Below are positions 1 through 19,986 of a DNA stretch of 64,000 nucleotides, piece by piece; position 1 is the stretch's first letter; each line of letters begins with the position of its first letter. The notes beneath the pieces were generated by a model. It did no database searches. It worked only from the letters and a program-made list of their open reading frames with translations, and was not told where the DNA came from. A program made the translations under genes and the position numbers. The DNA is taken from positions 122,032 through 186,031 of the forward strand of contig JAIXWK010000002.1 of NCBI GenBank assembly GCA_027491295.1. The letters are read 5' to 3'. Origin of the DNA: Microbacteriaceae bacterium. Its GTDB lineage: Bacteria > Actinomycetota > Actinomycetes > Actinomycetales > Microbacteriaceae.

Positions 1-3000
1 GTGGTGTCAAAGATCAAACCGGAGCGACCATCGGCAGCATCGCGCACGATGCTGATTCGGTCTGCAACGTTGTGCATCACACTTAGCTGAGCCGATGGGC
101 TAGAGCTAAATGCACCGTACTCAAACTTGAGTCGGTAGACCTCGGCAGATTGGGTAGGGGTCTCAACCACACCAACAAGAGCTAGCTGGTTGAAGGTCGC
201 AATACCGTTTACTACCGAAGCCGAAGAAGTCAGCAAGCCTCCACCTGAGCCGGATGCAATCACAGCAGACAGCGTTGTTCCGGTCTCGGTGGTGACAAGG
301 TTGTCGTCCTGGTCCAAAAGGCGAATGATCGGCTGAACCGAAAGCGCGTTACCGGTGCGAGTCAAACTTGGCGCGGTGCCGGAGCTTGGCTCCTGGTTGA
401 TAATCACCTTGGCAACAGGTCCAGGGAGAACTGCGAAGTCAGAGGTGGTGACTGCGCTCTGGCCAATTACTTCGAACTGGTAGTAGTAGCCCGATCGAGG
501 TTCTGCCTTCAGCGCCATGTTCGCAAAGGTAATCTCACCTGCGTTAGCGGTGAAGGCAAGTGCACTCTGTGTGATCAAGGTGCCACCGCGGTAGAGCTTG
601 GCAACCGCGGTAGAGGAGTTGTCAGACACAACCTTGTTACCAAACTCATCAAAGAGCGAGATAACTGGAGAGTAAGAAGGTGCGACTCTGGTCTTCACAT
701 CGGTGACGGTCCAGCTCAATGAGGTAGCAACCGCGTTACCTGCCAATAGCTGCACCGAGGTGACTGCGCTAATAGTTGTGCCAGCAGAGTTGATGCTGTA
801 GCTCAAGGTCACGATGCTCGATGCGGATCCAACCAGCTTTAGACCCGAGTAGCCTGCAACACCAGAGACAGCGCTCTGGGTTGTGCCGCCAGCAAGGTCT
901 GCGCCGTTTGCAGTGACAGTCACGACAAGCGAGCTGTTAGAGACCAGGTTGCCAGAGTCATCCAAGATGCGAAGCTGTGGCTGCGGAGTAAAGCTGAGTC
1001 CAACTCGGGTAGCAGATGGGTGAGCTGAGATCTCAAGCTGGCTTGGAGCACCGAAGGTCAGCGAGATCTGCTGTGAGGTGGAGATCACACCGGAGCTCGA
1101 GGTGCCCTCAGCGGTGAATACCAAGGTGTGGCTTCCCACTTGACCGCGGAGCTTGAGGTTGGAAGCAAAGCTTGCAATCGAGGTATGAGCGGATGCGGTC
1201 ACCGAACCAGAGAGTGTTGCAGTTGCAGCGCTGACTCGAATCACCATGCCGGAGGCAGATACCGCGTTACCGGAGACGTCACGAACGGTGATTGCAGGAG
1301 CCGTGGTGAAGAATTCACTGTTCACAAAGCCCTGAGCCTGTGTGGTTAGGTCAAGACTGTGCGCATCACCAAACAGCAGGGTGATCTGGTTCGAGGTCGA
1401 GATCGCATAAGGCGAAGCAATCGCAGCTGAGAGGTTCTTGTTTCCGACTAGGCCGGTGACCGCCACATTGCTGAAGGTTGCAATACCAGCTGTGGCAGCC
1501 AATGTGGTGGTTCCTGAGAGCACGGCACTAGAGACACTCAAGGTCACGTTCTGCGTCGACTGCGCACCGGTCGTGACCAGGTTGCCATCGGCATCCAAGA
1601 TCTTGGCAACGATGTTGGATGCGGTCAGCGCGTTCTTAGAGGTGGCAGGGCTTGAGAAGTCAATCGAGTTTGCAGCTCCGTGGGTGAGGGTGACCGAGAC
1701 CGTACTTGCAACCAAGCCCGTTGAACTAAATCCAATGCTGTAGCTACCAACAGCACCTGAGAGCATTAGCCCCGAGTAGTTAGCCACTCCTGAGCTAGCA
1801 AACCTGATTGCAGTTCCGGAAAGAGTCACACCACCAGTAGCCGCAGAGATCTGTGCTACAGAATCAGAAACTGGATTGCCTGCAGTATCGACCACGGTGA
1901 CCGCTATGTCGTTTAGGTTCGCTCGGTTTGCAACTGTCATCGACGTCGGGCTCACACTCAATGCATATGGACTACCGCCTACCACGGCAAACTGACTGGT
2001 GGTGATCGAGGTGGCATTAATTGGTGCGCCAGCATTGGTCGCGGTGAATCTCAATTGGGTGTTGCCAGCCTTAGCGGTTACCGCCAGGTTAGGAACATCA
2101 ATAAAGGAGCTACCCAAAGTGTTGGATGCGGTGGCACCGGCAATCGAAAGCACATTTGACGTCACCGCTGTGGCAGAGATAGTGGTGACCGAATCAAGAA
2201 CTGGGTTGCTATAGGTGTCCTGCACCTGCAAGCGAACAGCTGGGCTAAAGGTCAAACCGCTCTGAACGGTGTTTGGCATGTCGGTTACAACCACTAGCTT
2301 CGAGGCCGAAGCGTTGGTAACCGTGAACTGTGTAGATAGGAAGTCTGGCAGATTAGTTGCACTGATCTTCAATCGATAGGTTCCAGCCTCGGTCATTTTG
2401 AAGTCTTGATTGAAAGTTATCACTAGAGAGCCAGCAGGATAGTTGTAAATGCGTTCAACCTTCTTCACAACGGATGTGTCAGAAGCCAAGACAACCGAGA
2501 AAGTAAAGGTTCCATCAATACCTGGATTCGTCCGGTTGTTTGACGAGTCCAAGAATCCAAGCCTTGGGGCAGTCGGTTGGCCGACGCCCGCTGAAACAGT
2601 AGTCGGAACATAAGGCTGATTTAAGGTGTTCAAGACTTGAATTGCAACAGCAAAACCAGACATCAATTGGAACTGACTCGTGGTTGAGAAATGGTTTAGG
2701 TATTCGACCGAATCAACGCGCAATCTCACGTTCTGACCAGACAGACCAACAATCGCAATGTTGCTGAATGTTGCAATACCTTGCGAGAAGGAGGCTGATG
2801 TATTGCCGGTTAGGGAAACAGAGGTCCCAGCTCCAATCGACAGGATCGCAGAACCAGAGGAGAAGTTGCCGGTGGTGACCAGGTTGCCATCGATGTCAGT
2901 CATCTTTACAACTACTGGCTCAGAGATAGTTACTGCGACACTGGCCGAAGTTGGCTCCTTCACAAAGGCCATGTAGGTGGCGGTACCGTGAGTCAAAGAA

Positions 3001-6000
3001 ATTGCCTGGCTCACAGTTGCGATGCTGGATGCACTCGCTCCGGTCACGCTAAAGCTCAAGGTGTAGCTACGAACAAGGCCCTGCAGGCTGGTGCCAACGA
3101 AGGTTGCGACACCGGTTGAGGTGTTAACCGCCACCGTGCCATTCGAGATGGTGGCGCTCGGTGAGACGCTGAAGGAGATGTTGGCAGTGGTGCCGGTAAC
3201 GATGTTTCCCGCTGAGTCACGCAGTGCAATCTGAGGTTGGGTGGTGAAACCAATGCGGTTCGCTGCACCAGCTGCTGATCTCTCCAGACTCAACCTGGTG
3301 ACGTTACCGAAGTCGAGCGAGACGGAAACATTTGCACTGAGGGTGACAGGCAAGCTGACTTCTGCGGTTAAGGTCTTCGAACCAACAAGACCCTGCAGCG
3401 AGATGCCGGAGAAGGTGGCAACACCGGCGGACGCAGAGATGGCTGCCGTGCCGGACAGCGTGGCACCAGTTACCGATAGTCGAACAGTCTGAGTGGACTG
3501 AGCACCGGTGGTAACCAGGTTGCCATCGGCGTCGTAAATCTTTACCACCGGTTGCGAGCCAAGTGCTTGAGCATTCTTGGCGGTAGCTGAGGTGGTTATG
3601 GTGACGTAGTCAGCCGCACCGTGAGTGACCGTTATCGAGACAGTTGCCCCCACCAGTCCGGTTGAGTTCAAGCCAATACTGTAAGTTCCGGTCGTTCCAG
3701 ATACAGATAACGCGCTAAAGGTTGCAGTGCCATCCGAGGCGTATACCGTTGCGGTTCCGCTCAGGGTCGCACCTGTCAAGCTGGCATTGATCTGCGCGGT
3801 CGAGCTAGGAACCTGGTTTCCGGAACGGTCAAGAACCTTCACGCTGAAATTCGAAAGCAGGGTGCGGTTCGCAACGCTTATAGCCGTTGCGCTGACGCTC
3901 AACTGATATGGATCACCTGAAGTGATTCGGAAGGTCGAGCTTGGGTAAGTCTTAGCATTCACAGAAGTGCCAACGGATGCCGCAGTGAAGCGCAATTGCG
4001 CTGAACTACTAATGCCGCTGATGGCAAGGTCTGAGAAATCGATGATGGAATCACCAAGGGTGTTTTGCGCAACTCCACCAGCAATGCCAGAAACCGAACC
4101 TGCGATTGCCGAGACCGAGACGCTCACGGTCGAGTTCAGAACTGGGTTTCCGAACTGGTCCTGCAGCTGCAATCTAACTGCTGGGCTAAATGTGATTCCA
4201 GATTGGACGCTGGCTGGCATGTTCTGCAGGATCACCAGCTTGTCAGCTGCAGCGTTAGTGACCGTGAACTGCGAGGTGAATGCAGTTACTAGACCGCTTG
4301 TGCTGAAACGGAATTTGTAATCACCCACTTGCTGCACATAGAAATTGCTCTTCGGAATGATCACAAGAGTATCGCCTGCTGGAATCGTGAAGTTTCCGAT
4401 GGTGCGCTGGACGGTCGCTCCGTCCGATGCTGATACGACCGCAACTGAAATGGTGGTCACGTTGCTGGATGTTGCAAAGTTTCCATAGCGGTCCATGATT
4501 CGAATTTGGAAGTCATTTGATTGAGCCACGCCTGCTGATTTCGACGAGGCTGTGCCCTGATAGACATTTAGCTGATATGGAGCATTCGGAGAGAGGTAAA
4601 TATTGCTGGTGTAAAGGGAGTAATTAATTCCTGTTACACCGAATCCGATTCTGATGTTCCCGTAAGCACCGTTTGTAGCGGCCACATTATCAAAGGTCGC
4701 TGCTCCCGCCGATAGAGATACAGACAGCGTTCCCAAAAGATTAGAAGGATTGTTGTTTGCAGTTCCAAAAATTTCCATGGTCTTGGAAGAGTCGGGGCCA
4801 GTTGTAACTCGGTTACCGCGAGCGTCAATGACCTCTACGACAACAGAAGACATGGTTACACCTGCGGTTGCTTGGGTCGGTTGAGAAGCAACCCGCAGCG
4901 CAGTGGCTTGGCCATGAGTTAGATCGACTGCTTGGCTAATGCTCGCGACTGCAGAGCTGCTAGCGCCTTCAATTGCATAGCTAATGCTGTAGCTGCCGAC
5001 CACGCCTGAGATTGACAGCGCTGTGAATGTAGCGGTACCCGTGGTGGTGTTGACAGCAATCGTGGTTCCTGAGAGAGAAGCCGCTGGGTTAATGGTGGCC
5101 ACCACGTTGTGAGCCACGCCAGTCACTAGGTTGTTGGCGCTGTCGCGAAGCTTCAAAATCGGTTGGGTAGTTAGTGCAACACCATTGACAGCTCCAAGAC
5201 CTTCGGTTTCCAGAGTCAACTTGGCTGCTGCACCAACACCTAAGTCAACAACCGTGAGATCGGACATAGTAATTGGTGAATAGATTCTGGCGGTTACAGT
5301 CTTGCTGCCGGTGGAACCTTCGATGCCGATACCCGAGAAGGTGGCGATGCCCCCGGAGGCTGAAATGGCAGCGGTTCCAATCAATGCGCTAGGAGTTACC
5401 GAAAGCTGCACGGTCTGAGTGGACTCAGCGCCGGTTGTGACCAAGTTTCCGAAGGAATCCAAGATTCGGACAACTGGCTGACTGGTAAACGCTGTTCCGC
5501 TCTTTGCAGTTGCCGAGTTGGTCATGGCTATGGACGCAGCAGCTCCGTGAGTCAAGGTGATGGCCGATACCGAAGAAGAAACGGTGACGATTTGGTTGTC
5601 AGAGAGTCGCGTGTAGGCAACGGTGAAGGAGACAGAGATTGTGTCGCTCACGGATCCCGTGACAACTAGATCACTAAAGGTTGCAATGCCGTCATCATTC
5701 GCTCGAACCTGACGGCCCGCTGTGATGGCAGCTGTAGTTCCGGAAACCGTGGCAGAGACTGTGATGTTCTTGTGGTCACCGAGGACAATGCGGTTGCCGA
5801 AAGCATCCTCGACTGAGACTGTGAAGGAGAAGCCTGCCTGAGCCACAACTGATGTGGTGTCAGTGGCGGTAACGATTAGTCGACCTGGCTCACCTGCCAT
5901 GACGTTGTAGTTGCCAGAGGTGACAGTAAGAGTTGTATTGGCGTCAACTTGAACGTTGAGCGCAAAGTTGTATGTGCCGGTGCCAGCTAGCACTCGGATG

Positions 6001-6220
6001 GCGTTGTAGGTGATGTTTCCACCAACCCGGCTGGATGAGGTCAAACCGGTCACGGTTCCAGAACCTGAAGCGACGGTGGCGGATGCGGTGTATTGATATG
6101 CCAGACGGTTATTGCCATCTAGCACCTTGTTGTAGGCATCTCTAATAAGCACCTGAGGTGGCGGGTTGAAGGTAACCGCCAGGAACTCATTTGCCTGCTC
6201 AAGAGTTGGGCTGTTGGTTA
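1..6220 (-). repeat. Ig-like module array with six-module super-repeat
   Basis: At least 19 modules of about 100-115 residues, each marked by a D-x-x-GN-x-V motif (for example YDADGNLVTTG, RDSAGNIVTG, LDRSGNQVPSS). The motif codons fall near 6130, 5790, 5450, 5140, 4815, 4480, 4150, 3825, 3517, 3205, 2880, 2533, 2203, 1873, 1573, 1270, 950, 640 and 300. Module n resembles module n+6: 5450/3517/1573, 5140/3205/1270, 4150/2203 and so on, a higher-order period of about 1.93-1.94 kb (about 645 residues). Family resemblance is to bacterial Ig-like group 1/invasin-type modules. The array continues beyond the left edge. Confidence 0.8.
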
Positions 6221-9200: not shown

Positions 9201-12200
9201 GGAGACGCTGCCGTAATAGTTGTTACCAGCCGCGCCAGAGTCCATCTGCAGGTAGTTCACGTTGGCGGAAATAGTGATAGCGCCATTTCGGGATAGCAAA
9301 TAGTTGCGCATAATCGCGACGTCATAGGAACTAGCAGCCGGTGAGCTTCCATAGATGTCAATGCCGCCGCCAGTTGTTGCGGTCGAAGCGATGGTGATCC
9401 AGTTGAGGCTTCCGCCGCCAAACAGCCTAGTTCCCTGCTGGGTTCCTGCTGTCGTACCTGAAATCTTGATTGCTGGGCTGGCGGTACCGTGACTGACCAA
9501 AGTCAAAGGTCCGTTGTTGCCCGCCCAACTCTCATCGATAAATGCGAATCCATAGGTGCCGCCAGTGCCCGTTGAAACTGCATCAATGTCGATTCTTCCG
9601 GTACCCGTGAAAAATTCAGAGGTGTGATACAGCGCAATACCAAAGGTGGAACCCCTACCCTTCCAGATTAGATCGCCACCACCGGTAAAGAACCCGAGCG
9701 AGGACTGAAGCTGTAATCCTCTGTCAGTGTTGTATGTTGAGCCGTTTTGTGCATAGCCTGCCGGGAAGCCGTTCGAATCTGCCGTTGCTCCACCACCGAG
9801 AATGATGTCGCCGCCACCGGAGGTAGCGGTCTTGCTCTTAGCTCCGTTGTCGGTGGTCAACTGCACATAGTTTCCAAGCGTCATTCCACCAGCGCCTGAA
9901 CCGTCACCATCAGACCAGAGAACCAGGTCTCCCAGGTTAGTCTGCAAAACGGTGTGGCCAGCATCAGTTGTTCCCGAGCCATCCGGAATGTAGATATCGC
10001 CCTGGGCCTTGAGTAGGATTCGGCTACCGACACCGGTGGTCTTCAGATCCTTGTCGTTTGCCCAAATCAAATTCTTACCGTAAATCTCAACTGGACCTGA
10101 TGCGGTCACACTGCCGAGTGGATAGACATCGTAGGTAGCGGTGTTGATTAGGGAGTTTGAACCAACTAGGTAATTGGAAGCACCGCTTAGGTTGTGCCAG
10201 AGCTCTACATTCGATCCAAATGTGGTTGCAAATGGCTGAATCGAAACCGTACCGGAAGTGCTGATGGTTGCAGTGTTGGCATTTCCATGCAGACCATTGA
10301 CCAAGAAGCTGATGTTCGCGGCAGTGTTAGAAACCGATGTTGCTGATCTGGCACCCCAGGCTTGGGTGTAAGCCTGGTTGGTGTAACTCAGTACCGCATT
10401 AGAACTAAAGGTGATTGCACCATTTGCAGACAGCAGGTTGGTGGCTGCCAGGAAGGTTCCAATTGTGGTGGACAGAGATCCCAACCTGGAGTTGATGGAG
10501 ATTCCACCACCGGTGCTTGCCAGCGACTGAATGGTGGTTGGGTTGGCCGAGTTCTGCGTGTAAAGCCTGATTGCTTGGGTGGCGGTTCCAGAGATGGATG
10601 CAGAGATCGAGATCGCGGGAACGGCTGTTGCATGCGATGAGAAAAGTGCGCCTGCTTCTGACTCCGCAGAGATGAAATACTCGAAGGCTTCCACCGCAGC
10701 GGATGCTCTGCTGTCAATAAGTATTTGACCGTTACCGGTCACAAACTCATCTAAAGATTGGAAGTTGAAGGCGGACATTCCGGCATTCTTCGCAAATGCT
10801 CGAATAACCAGATCACCGCCACCGGTGAAGACATCGACGAACTTTCCAAATCCGACAGCAATGTCATTTAGCGATACTTCGTTTCGGAAACCAAAGTCAT
10901 AGGCATAACCAGCCGGACGGTTATTGCCGTCCGCTGCGCCACCTGCCATGTAGATGTTTCCGCCGCCGGAAACCGCACCATACGAATAGACACCATTCGC
11001 GGAGTTCACTCTGGTGTTGTGAGAGATCCATACCAAGCCCTCTTGGTTCGCATCAGAGTCTGACCAGAAGACAATGTCGGCGTTATTGGACTGGATGATC
11101 GAGAAGTCAGCGTCATTTGTTTGAGTCAGAGTTGTGGTGGCATTGTCAATATCAATCCACTGTCTAGCCCTAAGCATGACGGTGCTACCGGCCCTAGTGC
11201 TGATGAGGTCGTAACCCTTGTCCAAAGTAATTGCGTTACCGGCCACGGTAATGGTGCCGTCAGCGGTGACGTCTCCAGAAATCTTGATCGTCGTGCTCGC
11301 GGAATTAATGGTTGCGATGTTTCCAAACACGAAGTCACCCGAGGCAATGTTGAACTGAGTCTGCACATCGCCCGCGAAGTTGTTTCCGGCCGGCAAGATT
11401 GAAACGGTTCCAGAGGTGGAGATGGTCGACAACGAATTCGCTGTGGTGTCTAAGAGTTGAGCGCTGCGGATTGTGATGTTGGCGGATGAAGACACCACAT
11501 CGGTGCTCGACTTACCACCAAGGGCTCGAGATTCAGCAGAGTTCCAGTTGATTACCGCGCTAGTGGAGATGTCGATGGAGCCAGCTCGCGAGAGGATGTT
11601 CCAGCCCCAGATATAAAGTGTTTGGTTAGTAGCGGTCGGAGTGATTGCGGAGATGCTGATGCCGCCTCCGGTGGTCGCAATCGATGCCAGCGTGAACGGA
11701 TTGTTGGCATCGTTGTAGATGTTGTAACTGTTTCCGACAGTCCTAGTGGCAATCGAGATTGCCGGGGATATCGTTGCGGCTGAGATCCAGCTGCTGCTGT
11801 TCATTCTCATTCCGTTGGAGGCGGTGCCTTGATTCACAGTGACATCGATACGCCCGGTGCCCGACCAGATCAGCGAGCTTGGTTCGATTAGTGCTGCAGC
11901 AACAGCCTGGCTTTGCGAGACTGTGATGTCCACCAAGCCGCCGCCGGAGTAAATCTTTGAGTTGTCTTCGAGCCAAAGTGCGAACTGTCTACCGGAGACG
12001 TTAGCTCCTGGAACCGGACCGGTTGGGTGGCCATCCGCATCAACGGCAGAACCACCACCGATGGTGACTCGACCGCCGCCGCTTTCAGTCTTGCTGGCTG
12101 CACCGTTTGCGGTGTTTAGCTCTCCATAAATACCCAGAAGGAAGTAACCAGAACCGCCATCGTAGGCATTTGTCCACATCACGATGTCGCCATTGTTGGT

Positions 12201-15200
12201 TTGGATATCCGTGAACGTGGTGCTGTTACCGTCGGCCATATCGATCAGGGTCTTGGACCTAAAGACCAGATCCGCACCAGGTGCCGTATTGGTTAGCTTG
12301 ACACCATTGGAGATGTAGAAGCCATTACCAATAAACTCCGTCGGCAGGTTGAGCGTGGAGCTCGCAACTATGTCAATTGTGTTGCTGTTCGATGCCGAAC
12401 CCACTCGCAGGCCGGTTGGGTTTCCCGTGAACTTCAGATCGTCATCACCGCCGAATTTTGGCACGAAGTTAGTTGAGGCTGCCGAAGTTCTAAAGGCAGT
12501 GCCCTGCGGCTCAAGCACAATCTGACCACTGGTGCTGATTGTTGCCTCTAGGCCATGGCTAATGTGATCGGCACGAATAATCACTCCACCGGTAGCGGTG
12601 AATGATGTTCCATCGTTCCCACCCCAGATGCCATACTCAGCGGCACCAGAACCGACCTGTCTTCCCTCGATCAAAATTGCATCGGAAGCGGTCGAGAGCG
12701 AAGTTAGGTTAGTCGTTCCGCTCCAAGCGTTGAATTCCATAGTTCCGTCGGCATCAGTGCCGCCGGCGGTTGTTGTCTCACCAATCAGGTTTATCTTTCC
12801 GGTGCCGGAGAGAATCTCAGTTCCACCAACTATGGCGATTCCTGCGGCCCATGCGGCACCAGGGCTGGAATGCATGCGTCCGTAAACTCGGATGTTTCCG
12901 CCAGCGGAGTAAAGCTTTGCTCCACTGCTTCCAACGCCCATGGTGCCAAGCTGGACACCGGTGGTGTCGACCCCTCCAGTGGTGTTGTATGTCGAACCAC
13001 TGCCAGCCGCGGCTCCACCAGGTTGGGTTGGACTGGTTGTGCTTGCCAAGCCACCACCGATGACAATGTCTCCACCACCGGTGGTAGTGGTGCCACAAGT
13101 TCCAGCAGTGGAACATAGCGTTGCTCCACCTAGCAATCGGACGAAGCCGGCTGAGTTGTTGTCGCTATCCGCCCAAAGCACGATGTTTCCACCAGCGGTT
13201 CGAATCTGCCTAGAGGTAGACACTTGAATCTCGGCTGAGGCCCGCAAAAGAATTGTCGAACCTGCACCTGTGCTTTGAATGTTTTGGGATATCGATATAG
13301 ATGTGCCGTAGATGCTAATCGTGCCGCTGATGCTAAGCGGTGTGCTGATCTGCACCGAGCCGGTGCTCTGGTTCACAACCGAACTGCCTGAGAGCGTTCC
13401 AGGCTTTCCAATTCTCAAACTGCTGACACCAGTGGAAGGCTTAAAGCCAGAACCCAAGTTCAGAAGGGATTCGAAGCCACCGTTGTAAGGCTCAAATGCA
13501 ACCTCACCAGAGGTGCTGTAGACGACGTTGGCTTGGTTGGAAATCGAATCCGCCCTCACGACGATGTTTGCCGAAGAGGTGAGGGTTGATGTTGCACCGA
13601 AAATCATCGGGTCACTATTGAAGTTGATTACCGCAATGTCATTGCCGCTTCCAGAGCCCCTAGCCTCCACAACGATGGAGGAAGTGACGGCGTGGAAAAT
13701 CACGCTCTGGAAGCGCATGGCTGGAGCGTCGGTTTGGCTGTTGCGTCCCGAGACGTAAATTCCACCTTGGCCCTTGCTGGAGAAAATTACGTCGGTTGTT
13801 GTTGTGCCGCGCAAGAACGAAACACCAACCGAGTCGCCATTTGTTCCGGTCGAGAGACCGACTAGTGAAATGGCTTGGCTGTGGGAGCTGTAGCTTTCGA
13901 AAAGTGTCTGATTGCCGGGAACAGCCAAGTGTTCAAATGCGTGTGAGTTGTTACCGTCAGCACTAGTAGTCGATCTTGAGAAAGCCTCGAAAATCAGTCG
14001 ACCGTTTCCTGCCTTGAAGGTCATTTGCCCCAGCAGGTTGATGGCCATGCGCCTTGATGAGTCACCCTTGAACACCAAATCACCGCCACCCGAGTAGGCG
14101 GCAAAAGCATTCACCGCGTTGTCGGATCCCAGCTGAATGGCATCACCATTGTTCAGCCCCGCAGCACCGCGGGCATGACCATCAGGAAGCCCGTCACCAT
14201 TAGTGTCCGCACCGCCGGCCAGGTAGATATCTCCACCGCCTGTGATTGCAGTCGTGCTTCCCGCGACGGTGTTGAGAATGACACCGCTCTCCGCTCGAAT
14301 GTAACCGGCACCGTTGTTGTCCGAGTCGGACCAAAGAACTAAGTCGCCACTATTGAGCTGTATGTCGACATTCGCGGAAAGTGAGATGTTGCCGTTACCA
14401 CGAAGGGTGAGACTTGCTGTTGCACTCGTCACCACATCGTTTGCGACGTTGATGTTTCCGGAAGCAGAAATCACTGTCGAGAAGCTGGCCATGTGGCTAA
14501 CCAGATCTGAAGCCAGAATGTTGGTTGTTCCGGTTGCGGAGTTCGCATAGAACTCACCCTCAAAGAAGACTCCCTGGGTCGTCACGCCATTTGCAATATT
14601 TACGTTCGCAGGGAAAACGCTGGAAGACACGACCATAGTGGTTGCGATTGCGGCATCCGATGTGAAAACCAAGGTCTGGGCGGAGCTCACGGTGCTGGTG
14701 AAGCCAAGACCTGTGAACGTTGCGATTCCATTGACAGCATTGACAGTGAAGGATTGAGTGAGAGTTGATCCGTTGAACTGCAAAACACCGGCGGATGCCG
14801 TAACTCTCACCTGAGCGGTTGAGGAGATTCTGTTGCCTGCAAGATCGGTAAGTTGAATTTGAATTGGGTTAGCGAAAGCTCTGCCTGGGCGTGCTGCAAC
14901 TGGAGATTGAGTGAAGTCCAAGGTAGCGCCCCACGACAGCACTACAACTCCAGTTCCACCGTTACCACCCATCGAATCACTAGCCCAGTCACCACCGGCA
15001 CCACCACCACCGCCACCGGTGTAAAGACCTCCATTGGTTGCAACGACGAGGGCGCCAGCGCCACCACCACCTGCTCCACCTGCACCATGTGCGGTCGCAA
15101 TTCCATGGCGAGAACCACCACCACCACCGGCTAGCTGAATAGTGGCCCCGGTTATGGTCGTCGTTGCACCAGCACCACCGGCACCGGCTTGGGCGTCTGT

Positions 15201-18074
15201 TCCGGCAACACCAGGCTCGGTAGCGCCACCACCACCCGAGGTTCTCCAGTTGCCACCAATTGTTGTTCCACCACTGTTACCTTGGCCTGCTGTTCCAGCG
15301 CCGCCGACCCACTGATTTGTATCGTCACTGAGGCCACCACCACCACCACCAGAACCACCTGCAAGCGCTCGGGCGTCGGCTGCAGGAACAGCGGCTGCTT
15401 GGACAAGTGTCGCTCCTCGCCCACCACCATTCATGGTTATCGAACCCAGCCTTGAGGCTTGGCCATTGTTGGAGATTCGCTGAACGCCATTACTCAAATA
15501 GGTGTCAGTGCTAGCGCCAAACAATATTGATCCGTGGCCACCCTGTCCCACCACCACTCGAATCGCTTGCGGAGTCAATGTGAGTGACTGCGATTCGGTG
15601 AAGCCTCCGGCTCCACCACCACCACCGACCATGGCGCCACCACCACCGCCACCGCCAACGACAACGGCCTTGTATTTGGTCACACCGGATGGCAACGTGT
15701 AACCACCTGTTGCAGTTAGATAGCTTCGCTTGAAGGAACGGTAATTCTGGAGGGTGTGAGCGGAACCAGATTCAACTGTTAGACCCTCGGTGAAGTTGGC
15801 GGCTAGATAGCCTCCGGTAACTCCCGTGTTGAAGATTAGGTGGTTTCCGTTACCGGTTCTATCTCTTACAACTCCAGTCTCAAATTCATTGAAGTCGTAA
15901 TGAGCCTTCAAGGTGCCTGTCACGCCAGATGATGAATAGGTGTGCATCGAGGCTTGGACGTTTGCGGCATCCAGGGCAGTGGTCCACACCTTGACCTGAT
16001 CGATTGCACCGGAGACTTCAGGGTAGGCAAGGTCCCACTGTTGCGCTCCACCAATTGTGAATCGCGGGCCAATGGCACCCCAGGTAACCGCCTCGTCAAC
16101 CATCTTGATTCCATCGATGAATACTTCGACGTCGTTACCATTACGAACTAAAGCAATGTGGTACCAGCGATCCTGCAAGAACTTGAACGTGCCTAGGGTG
16201 TTGTTCGCGCCAGCACCGTAGGTGTAATGCAGGTAGCCATTGTTCAGCCAAAGAGAAGTTCGTTGAGCATAAGCCTGCGGGGTGTCCATCTGGGAAAAGA
16301 GTCCGCGATAGCCAGCTGCCACATCGTTGGCGTCCAGGTAGTACCAAGCCTCGTAAGTGAAGTTTCCAGACGCTGGAACAACTTGAGAATCGGTCCATGC
16401 GAAGCTCTCGGCAGCGTTGTTCTTATCCCAAGCTAGATCTTGATTTGGTGAGTAGCGCACGATGACGACTCCCGAACCACCATTCGCACCGGCGCTCCAA
16501 TAAGCACCGCCACCACCGGAACCGGTGTTTACTGCGCCTTCAGTCGGGGTGGTGTTGTTGGGTCCAGCCCCCGTGCCGCCGATGCTTGATCCGCCGTTGG
16601 AGCCTGTTCCATCTCGGTCAGCACCACCACCACCGGCAGCATAGAAAGTAGATGTGCCTGTGATGGAGCTGGACATTCCCGCACCACCTGCGCCTGAGAC
16701 TCGGAACGTTGAAGCATTTCCACCGGCACCTCCGGCACCACCACCACCGGAACCCGCCTGCGAGGCTGGGATGATAGTTCCACCGGCATTTCCGTATTCG
16801 ACACCCCCGGCATAAGTGGTGGCATCTGTTGCCTGAGTGCCGGTTGCACCGGCCTGGTTTGCATCTTGCTCAGAGTGACCACCACCGGAACCACCGGAGT
16901 ATCCAACGGCGCGATCGTAATTGCTGGGGTAACCATAGCCACCACCACCACCGCCACCGAGTGCTACAACCGAGCCCAATTCTGAGGTTTGTCCATTGAG
17001 ACCATGGTTGGTAACGCCAGAGACGTTTAGACCACCGCGACCACCTTGGCCAACTTTAATGTTGACCGTCGAACTCACCGATAGCGCTTGGAACTCTACG
17101 ACCCCACCACCGCCACCACCGCCACCGTCAGCGACTCCACCACCGCCACCACCGCCGGCGACTACAAGTGCGCGGAACGAGTTGGCATTGGTTGGAACTT
17201 TCCAGCTACCAATTCCTGGGAGGTAGGTTCTCGGGAAGGTGATCACAGTGTCGCCACCGGCCACATAGGTAGTGCGCTTTACGTCTTGGAAAATGATTGA
17301 GGATTTAGGAGAAAGATTGGCGGAACCGTAGCGATCGTGGACAACGTTTCCAGAACCCTGATTGAAATCCCAGTATGCAGCGGGTGTCGGGCTTGTTGGA
17401 CGGGTGTGCATGTCCGTCGACATAGCGACACCGCGATCTGCTTGCCAGAGACGAACCTCGTCAACCTGACCATCGAAGAATGCAGCGTTTGCACTATCGG
17501 CCATGTCATTTGCCCAAGCACCTATTCCAAAGTACTTGTTGTTTAAGCCACCGGAATTTACTCGACCACCGCGCGAGTGTACGTGCTGACCGTTCACGTA
17601 GAAGTGGACATCGGTTGCCGCCAGGACGAGCCCGATGTGGGTCCACTGACCCTGTCTAATAGAGATTCCCGTGTCGGTCAGACCGCCCGTCCAAGAGCTT
17701 CCGTCACCGGTGTAATACTGCCATTTGCCGTTGCGGCTAACGATTGCGAACTTGTGCTCCATGTTTATCAGCGCGCGGTCCGTTGAACCAGACGTCGCGG
17801 CAGCTGATCCTGGGTTCACCCAAGCTTGAATCGAGTAGACATTGGTTCCAGTGGGCTGGGGCAAGCTGCTGTATGTCGCACCCAAAATGTTTGCGCTAGA
17901 AGTTGATGAAAGCGTGGCCGCGAAATCGATCTCAGAAGCGGAACCGTCAGCCGAAGACTGAGCACTTAGGAAACTTGAGATAGCCATAGCTCCTGCGAGA
18001 AGCAATCCGATTGCAGCAAGCCCAAAGGAACGCAACCACTTGGTTGCCCCTCTGGTCAACTGCAGCTCGGTCAT
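1..18074 (-). CDS. Giant secreted repeat protein, probable adhesin (C-terminus outside window)
   Basis: One frame is open from the ATG at 18074 to the left edge, at least 6,024 codons without a stop. Residues 1-12 are polar and basic, 13-38 form a hydrophobic export segment (GLAAIGLLLAGAMAI) followed by small residues that could be a signal-peptidase site. Domain order by my translation: LamG/concanavalin-like domain (about 48-250), glycine-rich domain (about 270-540), second LamG (about 545-755), second glycine-rich domain (about 787-1049), one Ig-like module (1050-1145), beta-solenoid-like repeats (about 1150-3950), then an Ig-like array (about 3954 to the edge). LamG domains usually bind glycans or proteins; solenoids and Ig arrays usually act as stalks. 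Adhesion or cell-surface filament is inferred. The anchor (LPXTG, membrane segment or other) must lie beyond the window. A weak SD-like AGAGAG precedes the ATG. Numerous plus-strand ORFs over it are antisense shadows. Confidence 0.9.
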   Translation of the reverse strand, partial: MTELQLTRGATKWLRSFGLAAIGLLLAGAMAISSFLSAQSSADGSASEIDFAATLSSTSSANILGATYSSLPQPTGTNVYSIQAWVNPGSAAATSGSTDRALINMEHKFAIVSRNGKWQYYTGDGSSWTGGLTDTGISIRQGQWTHIGLVLAATDVHFYVNGQHVHSRGGRVNSGGLNNKYFGIGAWANDMADSANAAFFDGQVDEVRLWQADRGVAMSTDMHTRPTSPTPAAYWDFNQGSGNVVHDRYGSANLSPKSSIIFQDVKRTTYVAGGDTVITFPRTYLPGIGSWKVPTNANSFRALVVAGGGGGGGVADGGGGGGGGVVEFQALSVSSTVNIKVGQGGRGGLNVSGVTNHGLNGQTSELGSVVALGGGGGGGYGYPSNYDRAVGYSGGSGGGHSEQDANQAGATGTQATDATTYAGGVEYGNAGGTIIPASQAGSGGGGAGGAGGNASTFRVSGAGGAGMSSSITGTSTFYAAGGGGADRDGTGSNGGSSIGGTGAGPNNTTPTEGAVNTGSGGGGAYWSAGANGGSGVVIVRYSPNQDLAWDKNNAAESFAWTDSQVVPASGNFTYEAWYYLDANDVAAGYRGLFSQMDTPQAYAQRTSLWLNNGYLHYTYGAGANNTLGTFKFLQDRWYHIALVRNGNDVEVFIDGIKMVDEAVTWGAIGPRFTIGGAQQWDLAYPEVSGAIDQVKVWTTALDAANVQASMHTYSSSGVTGTLKAHYDFNEFETGVVRDRTGNGNHLIFNTGVTGGYLAANFTEGLTVESGSAHTLQNYRSFKRSYLTATGGYTLPSGVTKYKAVVVGGGGGGGAMVGGGGGAGGFTESQSLTLTPQAIRVVVGQGGHGSILFGASTDTYLSNGVQRISNNGQASRLGSITMNGGGRGATLVQAAAVPAADARALAGGSGGGGGGLSDDTNQWVGGAGTAGQGNSGGTTIGGNWRTSGGGGATEPGVAGTDAQAGAGGAGATTTITGATIQLAGGGGGSRHGIATAHGAGGAGGGGAGALVVATNGGLYTGGGGGGAGGDWASDSMGGNGGTGVVVLSWGATLDFTQSPVAARPGRAFANPIQIQLTDLAGNRISSTAQVRVTASAGVLQFNGSTLTQSFTVNAVNGIATFTGLGFTSTVSSAQTLVFTSDAAIATTMVVSSSVFPANVNIANGVTTQGVFFEGEFYANSATGTTNILASDLVSHMASFSTVISASGNINVANDVVTSATASLTLRGNGNISLSANVDIQLNSGDLVLWSDSDNNGAGYIRAESGVILNTVAGSTTAITGGGDIYLAGGADTNGDGLPDGHARGAAGLNNGDAIQLGSDNAVNAFAAYSGGGDLVFKGDSSRRMAINLLGQMTFKAGNGRLIFEAFSRSTTSADGNNSHAFEHLAVPGNQTLFESYSSHSQAISLVGLSTGTNGDSVGVSFLRGTTTTDVIFSSKGQGGIYVSGRNSQTDAPAMRFQSVIFHAVTSSIVVEARGSGSGNDIAVINFNSDPMIFGATSTLTSSANIVVRADSISNQANVVYSTSGEVAFEPYNGGFESLLNLGSGFKPSTGVSSLRIGKPGTLSGSSVVNQSTGSVQISTPLSISGTISIYGTSISISQNIQSTGAGSTILLRASAEIQVSTSRQIRTAGGNIVLWADSDNNSAGFVRLLGGATLCSTAGTCGTTTTGGGDIVIGGGLASTTSPTQPGGAAAGSGSTYNTTGGVDTTGVQLGTMGVGSSGAKLYSAGGNIRVYGRMHSSPGAAWAAGIAIVGGTEILSGTGKINLIGETTTAGGTDADGTMEFNAWSGTTNLTSLSTASDAILIEGRQVGSGAAEYGIWGGNDGTSFTATGGVIIRADHISHGLEATISTSGQIVLEPQGTAFRTSAASTNFVPKFGGDDDLKFTGNPTGLRVGSASNSNTIDIVASSTLNLPTEFIGNGFYISNGVKLTNTAPGADLVFRSKTLIDMADGNSTTFTDIQTNNGDIVMWTNAYDGGSGYFLLGIYGELNTANGAASKTESGGGRVTIGGGSAVDADGHPTGPVPGANVSGRQFALWLEDNSKIYSGGGLVDITVSQSQAVAAALIEPSSLIWSGTGRIDVTVNQGTASNGMRMNSSSWISAATISPAISIATRTVGNSYNIYNDANNPFTLASIATTGGGISISAITPTATNQTLYIWGWNILSRAGSIDISTSAVINWNSAESRALGGKSSTDVVSSSANITIRSAQLLDTTANSLSTISTSGTVSILPAGNNFAGDVQTQFNIASGDFVFGNIATINSASTTIKISGDVTADGTITVAGNAITLDKGYDLISTRAGSTVMLRARQWIDIDNATTTLTQTNDADFSIIQSNNADIVFWSDSDANQEGLVWISHNTRVNSANGVYSYGAVSGGGNIYMAGGAADGNNRPAGYAYDFGFRNEVSLNDIAVGFGKFVDVFTGGGDLVIRAFAKNAGMSAFNFQSLDEFVTGNGQILIDSRASAAVEAFEYFISAESEAGALFSSHATAVPAISISASISGTATQAIRLYTQNSANPTTIQSLASTGGGISINSRLGSLSTTIGTFLAATNLLSANGAITFSSNAVLSYTNQAYTQAWGARSATSVSNTAANISFLVNGLHGNANTATISTSGTVSIQPFATTFGSNVELWHNLSGASNYLVGSNSLINTATYDVYPLGSVTASGPVEIYGKNLIWANDKDLKTTGVGSRILLKAQGDIYIPDGSGTTDAGHTVLQTNLGDLVLWSDGDGSGAGGMTLGNYVQLTTDNGAKSKTATSGGGDIILGGGATADSNGFPAGYAQNGSTYNTDRGLQLQSSLGFFTGGGDLIWKGRGSTFGIALYHTSEFFTGTGRIDIDAVSTGTGGTYGFAFIDESWAGNNGPLTLVSHGTASPAIKISGTTAGTQQGTRLFGGGSLNWITIASTATTGGGIDIYGSSPAASSYDVAIMRNYLLSRNGAITISANVNYLQMDSGAAGNNYYGSVSGSPYVSTSSANVTFLMNEFDFDDASHFFRTSGDVTILPKTGNVFGMDFTPAFSTNGIRNLIIGKDPLSADTLRAITLTGNHTVSGDIDVYGGHVYPRGNFAVTGQGEILLKALSDIATDDAPRNFTTQGGDLTFWADSNAASGGSIYIAGSSRLQTNGGDITMAGGLDNGSSAVFGPRVSGDSRPDGFAVGRGSVANDNGVLIGVWGSARTIQILSGGGDINIAGQSSTVVGNSRGGVAMISGVIDAGSGKVKMRGAIDASAGTSYQRAVLFGAAGSDLAVLSSNSASDAIVIHGDASGATSGICGGVQSFDYQNLLIANEGSGGIQIIGDGCASNTNDLNTYTDGVALSDASVLARSGTIRIEGTTRNTASDAWGLYLNRRNGSGDNAVNLGSADRTYTLSTGKTVRISTSSSNVEIRVNSFNANQAPISTSGAVSFRSRTGVSFSSSPILTNLSIASTATGLEIGHPGTGSGQNTSNIVVGNAYTINGPVSVYGQDITISADITVTSASARATFKANGFVQTATGVDLRTAGGDLVLWSDADANGIGNITLQSTNSMCTGWNSVASTCTLTGGGDIVMGGGAADASDAGLPGGNAMGSGAIGTTSTGLALGPCVFANTASVSNVISTRGGNLVLRGSSTTGDTSTTALQAGVAICNGTTINLDAGKLDVTSQFRAITASYHSSFWVAPWTSPANPNAVVVNSSNSASDAVTIRAWGSNNDYTSFGLSINNSAAGGALFQLDTIWSNFAAYFNFNSAGPLRVAPYSTSFPVPMNIGSNFAISSSASLFEVGSASNSGQIYISGDKVLAGDITLRGGNVSISSAVTSTGSGKRISIISDTISLSANVSATNSGRVEISPRSSGRNIVLGVASTSTLAIPAAATTFLSATTLQLGSTTSGNISIEASTTFASAKVTNLKLVTPGNVTAVSGAVLTAANLAIDAGGNVNLPGSNSVAGNVAISASASVTYSSAVSYSPAVVDGTNAVFGVGRAISLTNSPTLEQANEFLAVTFNPPPQVLIRDAYNKVLDGNNRLAYQYTASATVASGSGTVTGLTSSSRVGGNITYNAIRVLAGTGTYNFALNVQVDANTTLTVTSGNYNVMAGEPGRLIVTATDTTSVVAQAGFSFTVSVEDAFGNRIVLGDHKNITVSATVSGTTAAITAGRQVRANDDGIATFSDLVVTGSVSDTISVSFTVAYTRLSDNQIVTVSSSVSAITLTHGAAASIAMTNSATAKSGTAFTSQPVVRILDSFGNLVTTGAESTQTVQLSVTPSALIGTAAISASGGIATFSGIGIEGSTGSKTVTARIYSPITMSDLTVVDLGVGAAAKLTLETEGLGAVNGVALTTQPILKLRDSANNLVTGVAHNVVATINPAASLSGTTIAVNTTTGTATFTALSISGVVGSYSISYAIEGASSSAVASISQAVDLTHGQATALRVASQPTQATAGVTMSSVVVEVIDARGNRVTTGPDSSKTMEIFGTANNNPSNLLGTLSVSLSAGAATFDNVAATNGAYGNIRIGFGVTGINYSLYTSNIYLSPNAPYQLNVYQGTASSKSAGVAQSNDFQIRIMDRYGNFATSSNVTTISVAVVSASDGATVQRTIGNFTIPAGDTLVIIPKSNFYVQQVGDYKFRFSTSGLVTAFTSQFTVTNAAADKLVILQNMPASVQSGITFSPAVRLQLQDQFGNPVLNSTVSVSVSAIAGSVSGIAGGVAQNTLGDSIIDFSDLAISGISSSAQLRFTAASVGTSVNAKTYPSSTFRITSGDPYQLSVSATAISVANRTLLSNFSVKVLDRSGNQVPSSTAQINASLTGATLSGTATVYASDGTATFSALSVSGTTGTYSIGLNSTGLVGATVSITVTHGAADYVTITTSATAKNAQALGSQPVVKIYDADGNLVTTGAQSTQTVRLSVTGATLSGTAAISASAGVATFSGISLQGLVGSKTLTAEVSLPVTLSANVSVSLDFGNVTRLSLERSAAGAANRIGFTTQPQIALRDSAGNIVTGTTANISFSVSPSATISNGTVAVNTSTGVATFVGTSLQGLVRSYTLSFSVTGASASSIATVSQAISLTHGTATYMAFVKEPTSASVAVTISEPVVVKMTDIDGNLVTTGNFSSGSAILSIGAGTSVSLTGNTSASFSQGIATFSNIAIVGLSGQNVRLRVDSVEYLNHFSTTSQFQLMSGFAVAIQVLNTLNQPYVPTTVSAGVGQPTAPRLGFLDSSNNRTNPGIDGTFTFSVVLASDTSVVKKVERIYNYPAGSLVITFNQDFKMTEAGTYRLKISATNLPDFLSTQFTVTNASASKLVVVTDMPNTVQSGLTFSPAVRLQVQDTYSNPVLDSVTTISATAVTSNVLSIAGATASNTLGSSFIDVPNLAVTAKAGNTQLRFTATNAGAPINATSITTSQFAVVGGSPYALSVSPTSMTVANRANLNDIAVTVVDTAGNPVSDSVAQISAATGGVTLSGTAIRFASSGVANYSGLMLSGAVGSYSIGFSSTGLVASTVSVTLTHGAANSIDFSSPATSKNALTASNIVAKILDADGNLVTTGAQSTQNVTLSVSSAVLSGTTTLAATAGIATFSNVAVTGLVGNKNLSAAIASPYAISTSNQITLLFGDAHSLDLTTQAQGFVNSEFFTTAPAITVRDVSGNAVSASGMVIRVSAATATLSGSVTASAHTSIASFASNLKLRGQVGSHTLVFTAEGTSSSGVISTSQQISLTFGAPSQLEISAHPSATRVGLSFTPQPQLRILDDSGNLVSNSSLVVTVTANGADLAGGTTQSAVSGVAGYSGLKLVGSASSIVTLSYSINSAGTTISAVTSVQLLAGNAVATSLSWTVTDVKTRVAPSYSPVISLFDEFGNKVVSDNSSTAVAKLYRGGTLITQSALAFTANAGEITFANMALKAEPRSGYYYQFEVIGQSAVTTSDFAVLPGPVAKVIINQEPSSGTAPSLTRTGNALSVQPIIRLLDQDDNLVTTETGTTLSAVIASGSGGGLLTSSASVVNGIATFNQLALVGVVETPTQSAEVYRLKFEYGAFSSSPSAQLSVMHNVADRISIVRDAADGRSGLIFDT
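6250..14630 (-). repeat. Beta-solenoid-like region, seven ~1.1-kb blocks
   Basis: About 2,800 residues of the giant protein. Three signature motifs recur in fixed order. (a) [LI]-V-[LFM]-W-[ST]-D-x-D-type. (b) GGGDI-x-[LMI]-[AG]-GG, at about 14215, 13050, 12050, 10945, 9795, 8705 and 7450. (c) [ST]-TSG-x-V-x-[IF]-x-P. Motif-b spacings are about 1165, 1000, 1105, 1150, 1090 and 1255 bp, i.e. blocks of roughly 330-420 residues. After motif b most blocks have an Asp/Asn/Gly/Pro-rich loop such as DTNGDGLPDG, DADGHPTG, DSNGFPAG or DASDAGLPGG, resembling calcium-binding loops. The strand-turn pattern (SGTVSI, ANITF, GSIDIS) is typical of parallel beta-helices of filamentous-haemagglutinin type; the fold itself is inferred. 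Confidence 0.75.
14930..15715 (-). repeat. Glycine-rich domain 2 (poly-Gly runs)
   Basis: Second copy of the glycine-rich type in the giant protein, about residues 787-1049. It again follows a LamG domain and again opens with a strand motif (KYKAVVVGGGGGGGG), then VVGQGGHG and many GGGGG runs. The LamG plus Gly-rich pair therefore occurs twice in tandem. The second copy ends at GGTGVVVLSW and passes into one Ig-like module (TDLAGNRIS). Confidence 0.8.
16490..17175 (-). repeat. Glycine-rich domain 1 (poly-Gly runs)
   Basis: Part of the giant protein, about residues 300-529. Runs of GGN codons appear on the plus strand as CCACCACCGCC-type tracts. The segment opens after a beta-strand-like lead (FRALVVAGGGGGGG) and has GQGGRGG and GGSGGG turns. 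This matches the general pattern of bacterial glycine-rich domains that follow a short 'W-x-V-P' strand motif (here GSWKVP). It lies directly after the first LamG domain. Confidence 0.8.
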
Positions 18075-18123
18075 AATCTCTCTCGTTTTCGGGCACGGCA
18101 AAGCACACCCTTTAGGCCCTTCA

Positions 18124-18215: not shown

Positions 18216-18794
18216 TTAGCGAACCAAAACCATGGCTGATTCGACCAGTTGCCCAGCGACAAAAACCTTCACTTCAACCAGGCGATTACTGCCCACCCGG
18301 GTGAGGTTCGCGGTGAAGTTATTGGTCAAAAGCGATACTTCGCGGAACCTATTGCCTACCTGAATCGAGAGCTTCTGTCCGGAGAGATTCTTGGTGTATA
18401 CGGCGACGTAACCCAAGAAGGAGCCGATGGTTACCTTGGTGTCTTTTTCGGTCTCCAAAGAGACGATTTCGATCTGGAATGAAGATTTAGTGTTGCCGCT
18501 ATTAGAGACCAGGGTGATTGTGACGTCCCCTGGGTTCGTGCCCAGTGGGATGCGGATTGCGATCAGGGTATTGGAGGATGCCTGGAAGGTGGTTGGCAGA
18601 TCGTCTATCAAGACCTGCTCGACCTTTTTGAAGTCCCAACCTGCGACTCTAATCACACTGTCGGCACTGGCTTGAGAACCTTCTATCGCAGGCGATGCCT
18701 TCGGGGCTAGGTGGATGTTTACTGCTTGAGCGGGATAGGCAAAGCTCACTAGCAGCATGGCTGCGATGGCTGCGAATACCTTCTTTTGTCCCAT
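18216..18794 (-). CDS. Small secreted protein, possible IPT/TIG-like domain
   Basis: 192 residues with a clear signal peptide (KKVFAAIAAMLLVSFAYPAQA, cleavage likely after AQA near residue 24). The mature part is beta-rich, with a segment like an IPT/TIG Ig-fold (SVIRVAGWDF, then IPLGTNPGDVTITLVSNSG), then a second beta-rich half of unknown kind. No catalytic motif is visible. It lies 141 bp upstream of the giant gene on the same strand and could be a partner of it, but this rests on position alone. The ATG at 18794 is preceded by TAGGCT at 18803-18808 on the minus strand with an 8-nt spacer, so it may be leaderless. Confidence 0.75.
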   Translation of the reverse strand: MGQKKVFAAIAAMLLVSFAYPAQAVNIHLAPKASPAIEGSQASADSVIRVAGWDFKKVEQVLIDDLPTTFQASSNTLIAIRIPLGTNPGDVTITLVSNSGNTKSSFQIEIVSLETEKDTKVTIGSFLGYVAVYTKNLSGQKLSIQVGNRFREVSLLTNNFTANLTRVGSNRLVEVKVFVAGQLVESAMVLVR

Positions 18795-18897: not shown

Positions 18898-19281
18898 TTA
18901 CTTTAGGGTAACCTTGCCGCCGGCAGCTTCTAGCTTTGCCTTGGCGTCCTCAGCGGTCTCCTTCTTGGCACCCTCAAGGATGGTTGCAGGTGCACCATCA
19001 ACTAGAGCCTTTGCCTCACCTAGACCTAGGTTGGTGATTGCACGAACCTCCTTGATGACCTGGATCTTCTGGTCACCAGCGGACTCTAGTACAACGTCGA
19101 ACTCGGTCTTCTCTTCTGCAGCCTCAGCAGGTGCAGCAGCACCGCCAGCAGCAGCAACTGCAACTGGTGCAGCAGCAGAAACTTCGAATACCTCTTCGAA
19201 CTTCTTTACGAACTCAGAAAGCTCGATCAGGGTTAGCTCCTTGAAAGCCTCAATGAGCTGGTCGGCAGATAGCTTTGCCAT
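18898..19281 (-). CDS. rplL: 50S ribosomal protein L7/L12
   Basis: 127 residues, the normal length for the bacterial L7/L12 stalk protein. The N-terminal dimerisation helix region ([24 protein letters not shown]) leads into an Ala/Gly-rich hinge at about residues 35-55 ([20 protein letters not shown]). The C-terminal domain follows, with [24 protein letters not shown] and [13 protein letters not shown], the surface that recruits translational GTPases. It is 30 bp downstream of rplJ and ends in a strong terminator, so rplJ-rplL form one transcript controlled by the upstream L10-type leader. Confidence 0.98.
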
Positions 19282-19311
19282 TTGTGTCTCCTATTGGTTT
19301 GTTGACGATTA

Positions 19312-19824: not shown

Positions 19825-19860
19825 GGCACTCCTTGTTTGTGTTGGTGCCGGTCAGTTCTT

Positions 19861-19966
19861 AAAAGAAAAAGCTCCGAACGCAGAGTAAACGTTCAGAGCA
19901 AAAAAGCTTCTTACATTCACCTGCGCTGGCCTTCACTTTCGTGAACCTTAATCAACGCAGGTGAAT
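19861..19966 (-). ncRNA. L10-type mRNA leader with attenuator
   Basis: On the minus strand, 5' to 3', a perfect 11-bp stem (ATTCACCTGCG at 19966-19956 pairing with CGCAGGTGAAT at 19925-19915) encloses a smaller TTCAC/GTGAA hairpin (19945-19932). An intrinsic terminator follows: GCTCTGAACG (19899-19890) pairs with CGTTCGGAGC (19880-19871), one G-U pair, then TTTTTCTTTT (19870-19861). This arrangement matches the L10 leader of ribosomal protein operons, where L10(L12)4 binding and attenuation control rplJL. Assignment is by structure and position only. Confidence 0.8.
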
Positions 19967-19986
19967 CTAGAAACTAATTTCTTTGA

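Follow-up and report, generated by a model that had tools for sequence, protein, structure and literature searches.

A predicted 825-kDa surface fibre encoded at an optional locus of a small Microbacteriaceae genome, with a divergent outer half and apparently exchanged C-terminal anchors

The window, a stretch of 64,000 nucleotides, corresponds to C1:122032-186031 of a Microbacteriaceae genome of 1,446,827 bases (G000; three contigs, 98.8% complete), and has 51-56% GC across its sub-windows; the small genome and this base composition are consistent with freshwater 'Luna'-type Microbacteriaceae. Its left part is filled by a minus-strand open reading frame starting at an ATG at position 18074 (C1:140105). 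A preliminary description had reported in this first 18 kb a single gene of more than 6,000 codons, free of in-frame stops down to position 1; the frame is confirmed, and the gene is real and larger than stated. Upon addition of 20 kb of the same contig (L003) to the left of the window, the stop codon was located at C1:115710-115712, 6.3 kb outside (6,321 bases left of position 1), and the complete frame counts 8,131 codons and zero internal stops. The encoded protein has a mass of 825 kDa and a pI of 5.06. Within the window the frame is open over 3..18101, and a TTG at 18101 could also serve as the start (giving 8,140 aa); from the ATG onward the relatives G018 and G017 share the sequence, the G018 frame being likewise open slightly further upstream. 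The five remaining frames over the locus contain 234-475 stops, and their longest open run does not exceed 186 codons. A chance frame was rejected, its probability given the base composition being about 10^-138, and start-to-stop giants of 7,075-10,946 aa being present in six further genomes. The 3' ends of the gene and of a ZIP-transporter gene converging on it overlap by four bases (ZIP assigned by Pfam).

From the N- to the C-terminus the protein is made up by a signal-like segment, two LamG/Gly-rich pairs, one Ig-like domain, seven solenoid blocks and 26 Ig-like domains (Table 1), followed by a Cys-paired stalk featuring Fn3 matches (aa 6790-7570), a Pro/Thr-rich linker (aa 7570-7682; 29% Pro, 17% Thr) and a multi-pass membrane domain of roughly 450 aa (aa 7680-8131). 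Stalk, linker and membrane domain emerged from the flanking sequence, where the preliminary description had proposed to look for the C-terminus; its list of tandem LamG plus Gly-rich pairs, a seven-block solenoid and Ig super-repeats holds, with two LamG and two Gly_rich_2 domains, seven solenoid blocks and an Ig super-repeat of ~645 aa. Both LamG and both Gly_rich_2 domains exceed the Pfam cut-offs. The extent of the solenoid depends on the seed used, either seven blocks at aa 1110-3709, or eight including a partial one, and the HMM match of the first block begins inside the lone Ig-like domain, at aa 1110. Six Ig domains make up the super-repeat, copies at aa 4201 and aa 4843 being 49% identical over 277 columns; one more Ig-HMM match, at aa 7242-7347, shares residues with an Fn3 match and is left out of the Ig count. 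The protein has 22 Cys residues, 14 of them at aa 6822-7531 in close pairs. Another large Gly_rich_2 protein is encoded at one end of the same contig (G000:C1:1-2378, L037), and is ended by the contig edge after 792 aa.

Table 1. Coordinates, in the window, of the giant gene, its domains and its upstream neighbours
Feature	Position	Strand	Basis or remark
In-window portion of giant gene, 6,024 codons	1..18074	-	continues to C1:115710
Putative signal peptide, aa 1-43	17946..18074	-	by eye
LamG domain 1 (Laminin_G_3)	17442..17873	-	Pfam
Gly_rich_2 domain 1	16452..17207	-	Pfam
LamG domain 2	15954..16400	-	Pfam
Gly_rich_2 domain 2	14931..15701	-	Pfam
Lone Ig-like domain separating tip from solenoid, aa 1055-1160	14595..14912	-	HMM
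Solenoid, seven ~385-aa blocks and partial eighth, aa 1161-3827	6594..14594	-	HMM
In-window part of 26 tandem Ig-like domains (aa 3957-6786, ~108 aa each)	1..6206	-	HMM
Small TIG-domain gene, 192 aa, upstream of giant	18216..18794	-	90% identical in G018
Slot flank: rplL 18898-19281, rplJ 19312-19824, DEAD-box helicase 19987-21819	18898..21819	-	conserved

The internal repeats were found by windowed searches and HMMs; a blastp self-comparison of the giant at E 1e-6 listed none. Pfam detected nothing in the solenoid pieces at E 0.01. Searches of the blocks against families gave only unrelated single-member matches at E 0.13 or worse, against PDB sequences a single match at E 0.95, and against NCBIfam no convincing match. 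The solenoid sequence matches none of the known beta-helix families (FHA-type exported proteins); that the blocks form a beta-helix is a guess made from composition. In the Ig array Pfam places Glyco_hydro2_C5 over the cut-off (44 bits) and Invasin_D3 below it. The architecture matched no named family model, in keeping with the preliminary description, whose author knew this domain combination from none.

The giant gene resides in a slot flanked by ZIP/nrdAB on one side and rplJL/DEAD-helicase on the other. The slot was surveyed by locating the DEAD-box helicase and nrdB in 22 genomes of the genus, 11 of which carry both genes on the same contig (the identities of nrdA, nrdB and purA were tested with Pfam). 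The two genes are 24-50 kb apart in four of the 11 genomes (G000, 27.3; G018, 24.1; G007, 49.6; G011, 26.5 kb), and 2.1-2.8 kb apart in the other seven (G002, 2.8; G016, 2.6; G008, G009, G012, G014 and G015, 2.1 kb). The content of the short interval was read in G002, G009, G014 and G016: ZIP directly adjoins rplL/rplJ in G009 and G014, a TIG-like gene lies between ZIP and rplL/rplJ in G002, and no ZIP match was found in the G016 interval. In G017 and G004 the C-terminal domain of the giant lies beside nrdB, on contigs missing the helicase. Relatives of the first 1,666 residues of the giant were detected in seven of the 22 genomes, G000 included. The giant gene is optional within the genus, and this speaks against its being kept by the lineage as a whole. 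The giants read whole are intact, G003 excepted, in which giant genes are split into several frames (G003:C2:709000-747778 and C3:1-2000); sequencing error in this draft genome seems likelier than decay.

Domains were counted by running HMMs derived from the G000 giant on 12 large proteins picked from the loci. Eight proteins feature both solenoid (5-11 matches) and Ig repeats (21-54 matches); the other four, 2,071-3,381 aa long and including a G000 paralogue adjacent to purA, have the membrane domain only. The giant of the window is not singular, its plan being common to eight giants spanning seven genomes and two genera. In the genus of the window the giants measure 8,131 aa in G000, 7,075 aa in G018 (7,084 from the earlier start), 8,388 and 7,346 aa in G007 and 7,342 aa in G011; in genus g11, 7,965 aa in G031, 10,946 aa in G245 and 9,066 aa in G358. 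The two G007 giants are arranged in tandem in the same slot (G007:C1:1177872-1225191), and fill ~47 kb of a 1.46-Mb genome. A 291-aa ORF beside the G011 giant (G011:C1:1603868-1604743, L031) matches the C-terminus of G007_8388 (41% over 236 columns), and is possibly the remnant of a second giant.

The giants can be further distinguished by their C-termini. Five end with the multi-pass domain. G007_8388, G007_7346 and the G011 giant end with Fn3, an acidic or Ser/Gly-rich linker, a single hydrophobic helix and a basic tail, as read by eye; a TIG match lies near the C-terminus of both G007 giants, in one over and in the other under the Pfam cut-off, and Pfam listed none in the G011 giant. G007_7346 can be aligned to the G000 giant both N-terminally and across the Fn3 region, identity at aa 6601-7500 being 54-57%. 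Since a protein homologous to the G000 giant carries the other anchor, anchors are, judging from these alignments, exchanged between otherwise homologous fibres. The most distinctive features of the giant, the exchangeable anchor and the diverged outer half (see below), could not have been read from the window alone.

Used as a protein query, the membrane domain matched in eight of 59 genomes, G000 included. A search with a nine-row alignment, confined to one phylum, covered overlapping samples of genomes: at the level of the family it found the domain in 20 of 398 (9 of 85 genera), of the order in one of 347 (G000 alone), of the class in 16 of 394 and of the phylum in 6 of 296, every count including G000. 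The matching genomes measure 1.0-3.1 Mb. Short exact peptide patterns, run over contigs of named genomes, hit three loci, all from close relatives; the nearest named record carrying the domain is JAIYCT010000002, a pond MAG labelled Microbacteriaceae. In the giants the domain is the extreme C-terminus; among 35 ORFs with a match, 32 are complete at the 3' end, and in all 32 no more than 13 residues separate the match from the C-terminus. Frames containing most of the domain in the class's other orders are 555-1,147 aa long, one being 2,377 aa; shorter ones contain fragments of it. The paralogue of 2,071 aa mentioned above (G000:C1:368830-375045, L023) has the same membrane domain (59% identical) and Big_5 domains; paralogues of 2,283 and 2,040 aa lie near the same purA gene in G007 and G019, respectively.

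In an alignment of 31 sequences, the most distant being 26% identical to the first, there are 12 invariant columns, of which eight are charged (D109, R114, D161, R210, R213, R226, D229, R290). AlphaFold2 predicts from these sequences an all-helical membrane domain (pLDDT 77.7, pTM 0.77); an earlier model from nine sequences was poor (pLDDT 57.5), and the 31-sequence model was used for the fold search. Loop charges gave contradictory readings of the topology, and the number of passes is left unstated. Foldseek found no PDB structure at E 0.001 (best E 0.26, TM 0.14), and the best hit in PDB sequences had E 0.09; lack of a PDB match is not proof of a new fold. Over the 31 members Pfam reported no consistent family, none being matched by more than three members, and NCBIfam had no match for the piece carrying the domain. 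Identity with Amj was discarded, the match (E 0.0095, in one of 31 sequences) looking like chance. Both the multi-pass domain and the 385-aa solenoid repeat seem to represent families that no model covers yet.

G018, the closest relative, is collinear with G000 on both sides of the giant. Forty-four of 48 G000 proteins of at least 150 aa were matched in 84 kb of G018, the four unmatched ones lying at the window end, beyond the compared G018 stretch. Leaving aside the giant and the TIG gene, 42 flanking proteins are 92-100% identical in the two genomes (median 97.8%). The giant, profiled in steps of 250 aa, is 37-62% identical at aa 1-1000, 61-72% at aa 1001-1750, 91% at aa 1751-2000 and 76-79% at aa 2001-2500; identity is 50-54% again at aa 2501-3000, aa 3001-3500 are mostly unaligned, and values of 69%, 91% and 75% were found at aa 3501-3750, 3751-4250 and 4251-4750, respectively. 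Residues 4751-5500 are mostly absent from G018; identity reaches 92-98% at aa 5501-7500, in the membrane-proximal Ig array and stalk, and is 69% for the linker window and 87-96% for the membrane domain. The G018 tip retains two LamG and two Gly_rich_2 domains. HMMs counted 27 Ig and 8 solenoid matches in G000 vs. 21 and 7 in G018; the missing six Ig domains and one solenoid block explain nearly all of the 1,056-residue length gap, and block loss fits the repeated nature of these regions. In G017 the helicase, rplJ and rplL are 96-97% identical, and the TIG gene 85%; the same contig carries the N-terminal 307 residues of a giant, whose identity is 48% with G000 and 68% with G018, hence a third allele. 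The first 45 aa are 78-91% identical pairwise among the three genomes. The comparison of the tip comprises one well-covered pair and this 307-aa fragment of a third genome.

Synonymous divergence and omega were computed between G000 and G018 in 17 windows of 500 codons, 15 of which were computable. In the giant, dS is 1.7-2.6 at aa 1-1500, 0.75 at aa 1501-2000, 2.6-2.8 at aa 2001-3000, 0.88-1.55 from aa 3501 to ~4815, 0.2-0.46 at aa 5501-7500 and 0.53-0.54 in the last two windows, the values near saturation being rough estimates, as are the corresponding omega values. Among 11 flanking genes tested, dS is 0.08-0.30 in ten, and 0.64 in the TIG gene. Over the distal 4,800 residues dS (0.75-2.8) is thus above the flanks in every computable window; linker (69% identity), membrane domain (dS ~0.5) and TIG gene are above the flanks too. 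Omega is 0.06-0.26 in the 15 computable windows of the giant, and 0.03-0.10 in ten of the 11 flanking genes, rplJ reaching 0.30. The preliminary description had taken the upkeep of so long a gene in a lineage of compact genomes as a sign of strong selection. Constraint on the sequence is borne out by the omega values, though these exceed those of most flanking genes tested; with a short slot in seven of the 11 genomes having both flanks on one contig and N-terminal relatives in a minority of the genus, selection retains the giant gene in some lineages only.

High dS coupled to low omega favours allele replacement over fast change in place, and points, from the comparison of sequences, to an outer half replaced by old, constrained alleles; old alleles under balancing selection, not recently exchanged, could be an alternative. 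Positive selection on point mutations is not supported as the chief source of divergence in the tip, dS being saturated and omega, where computable, at most 0.26 in a pairwise test that is blind to single sites. Divergence extends beyond the tip, as in the low-identity stretch at aa 2501-3000, and tip exchange may therefore be exchange of the whole outer half.

The giant has the hallmarks of giant surface proteins, a known kind (surveyed in PMC11573180): a single frame exceeding 5,000 aa, extracellular-type repeats, a putative export signal and a membrane anchor, the surface location being predicted. We regard it as probable that the single 825-kDa protein works as a membrane-anchored adhesive surface fibre with a recombining lectin tip. 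Sec would export the N-terminus first and the multi-pass domain would stay in the membrane, which would leave the LamG tip outermost, farthest from the cell, with the Pro/Thr linker spanning the wall. Usual dimensions are ~4 nm per Ig domain and 0.48 nm per beta-helix rung of ~22 residues; applied to the giant, they give a shaft that would set the tip roughly 150-200 nm off the cell. The tip may bind glycans of particles, algae or other cells, in what is presumably a freshwater habitat. LamG folds are not always lectins. Natural transformation and homologous recombination would bring in divergent alleles, which shifts in the targets of binding or recognition would maintain. Rhodoluna lacicola, a Microbacteriaceae species with a genome of 1.43 Mbp and 51.5% GC (PMC4156110), and Aurantimicrobium photophilum are described as naturally transformable, with gene replacement by double homologous recombination (PMC11577799); similar competence would supply the means of allele exchange. 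A membrane anchor is expected in G000 since the sortase family PF04203 has no match in this genome, three of 14 control genomes being positive. Sortase anchoring was rejected on this ground, and because the C-terminus is multi-pass and not an LPXTG-helix-charged tail. Against the adhesive fibre, the slot is too short for a giant in at least seven relatives.

The same fibre might serve mainly to bar phages, protists and other cells, changes in the tip evading recognition. This second reading is doubtful, yet the main rival. Ebh, SraP and SasG, giant surface proteins of S. aureus, are reported to prevent other surface proteins from mediating adhesion (PMC6548404), defence against grazing as well as swimming is cited for SwmB of Synechococcus (PMC4949707), and tip divergence and presence/absence of the gene suit evasion as much as binding. 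A passive shield would however have no need of a conserved LamG and Gly-rich tip, and G000 and G018 keep the same four domains even though about half of the sequence differs.

Somewhat less credible still is a reading, compatible with either use of the fibre, in which the multi-pass domain is the active part (a sensor, a transporter or an export platform), and the fibre its antenna. The eight charged residues among the 12 invariant columns argue for it, as do the presence of a multi-pass domain where three sister giants have one hydrophobic helix, and its occurrence on short proteins; a related stretch precedes an NHL propeller in two genomes of the distant actinobacterial family f104 (L080, G1282:C6; L081, G1300:C25). 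The same three giants weigh against it, for they show that the fibre does not need the multi-pass domain, and similarity to solved structures is missing at the threshold given above. The gene might also be a recently acquired mobile or decaying island gene, serving no kept function, as presence/absence at a fixed slot could suggest; frames intact in seven genomes, omega no higher than 0.26 wherever computable, a host-like GC3 (0.571 vs. 0.553 in the DEAD-box helicase), and the lack of transposase or integrase in a Pfam search of the seven genes neighbouring the giant make this very improbable. An artefact of assembly or MAG reconstruction, the preliminary description having named assembly errors and frameshifts as threats to the single gene, can practically be dismissed: at least some relatives are MAGs and frames are broken at the giant locus of G003, but overlapping sequence stretches across the gene agree, and intact, syntenic homologues occur in separate genomes.

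Known systems resemble the adhesive fibre in part. SwmB of marine Synechococcus WH8102 (10,791 aa), a giant exported protein, likewise comes from a small planktonic bacterium (PMC4949707). It differs from the G000 giant in phylum and envelope. We know of no multi-pass C-terminus in SwmB. Ebh and Embp of staphylococci (~1.1 and 1 MDa) are giant surface proteins of Gram-positives, Embp being formed by tandem repeats (PMC6548404, PMC7587433). The Embp repeats are alpha-helical F/FG repeats, whereas the G000 giant is made of Ig-like and solenoid repeats with a multi-pass C-terminus; no Ebh/Embp helical repeat model was listed by Pfam or NCBIfam at E 0.01 for nine overlapping pieces of the giant. 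Proteins of the LPXTG/sortase type have a signal peptide, repeats and a Pro-rich wall-spanning linker; the giant shares with them the signal-like start, the repeats and the linker, and differs in the lack of a sortase match and in the 450-aa multi-pass end. Genomic island 1 of Haloquadratum walsbyi, with halomucin 2, encodes syntenic large surface proteins strongly divergent between strains, hmu2 homologues being 30-75% similar; it is archaeal and multi-gene, and the available text of that report describes no fibre of the giant's plan (PMC4535781). The open-licence texts available, including PMC4156110, PMC12422013 and PMC11039613, nowhere mention that this bacterial group has giant proteins. 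As far as searched, architecture, solenoid repeat, multi-pass domain family, anchor exchange, and a slot either full or empty with replaced outer parts are new.

Describing the multi-pass and solenoid families would improve the annotation of large uncharacterised proteins. Ultramicrobacteria are stock examples of genome streamlining; despite this, one apparent surface-protein gene takes 1.7% of a 1.45-Mb genome. The locus is a natural comparison, with zero, one or two giants per slot, differing in the outer parts and conserved at the base, and makes testable the benefit of long surface structures to small planktonic bacteria in attachment or in escape from grazing or phages. It is tentatively suggested, with more doubt than confidence, that the membrane domain founds a new family of multi-pass platforms, active via the invariant charges and displaying interchangeable extracellular parts, from ~560 aa to the 10,946-aa fibre; the giants would be the largest loads, their outer parts exchanged by natural transformation. 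So far the family has been found only in Actinomycetota whose genomes do not exceed 3.1 Mb, the search of other phyla consisting of short exact peptide patterns. Such platforms, if real, could sense, energise or export the fibre.

The small TIG gene upstream of the giant could have been what is left of the C-terminus of a lost giant, TIG domains being found at the end of the G007 giants. The idea was dropped, as the similarity is marginal (47 aa, E 0.003), the gene has by eye a signal-like start of its own, and a relative resides in the short slot of G002. The last ~80 residues of the 192-aa protein resemble, by eye, the C-termini of larger proteins of the genus (in G001, G003 and G011), and are perhaps another shared C-terminal module.
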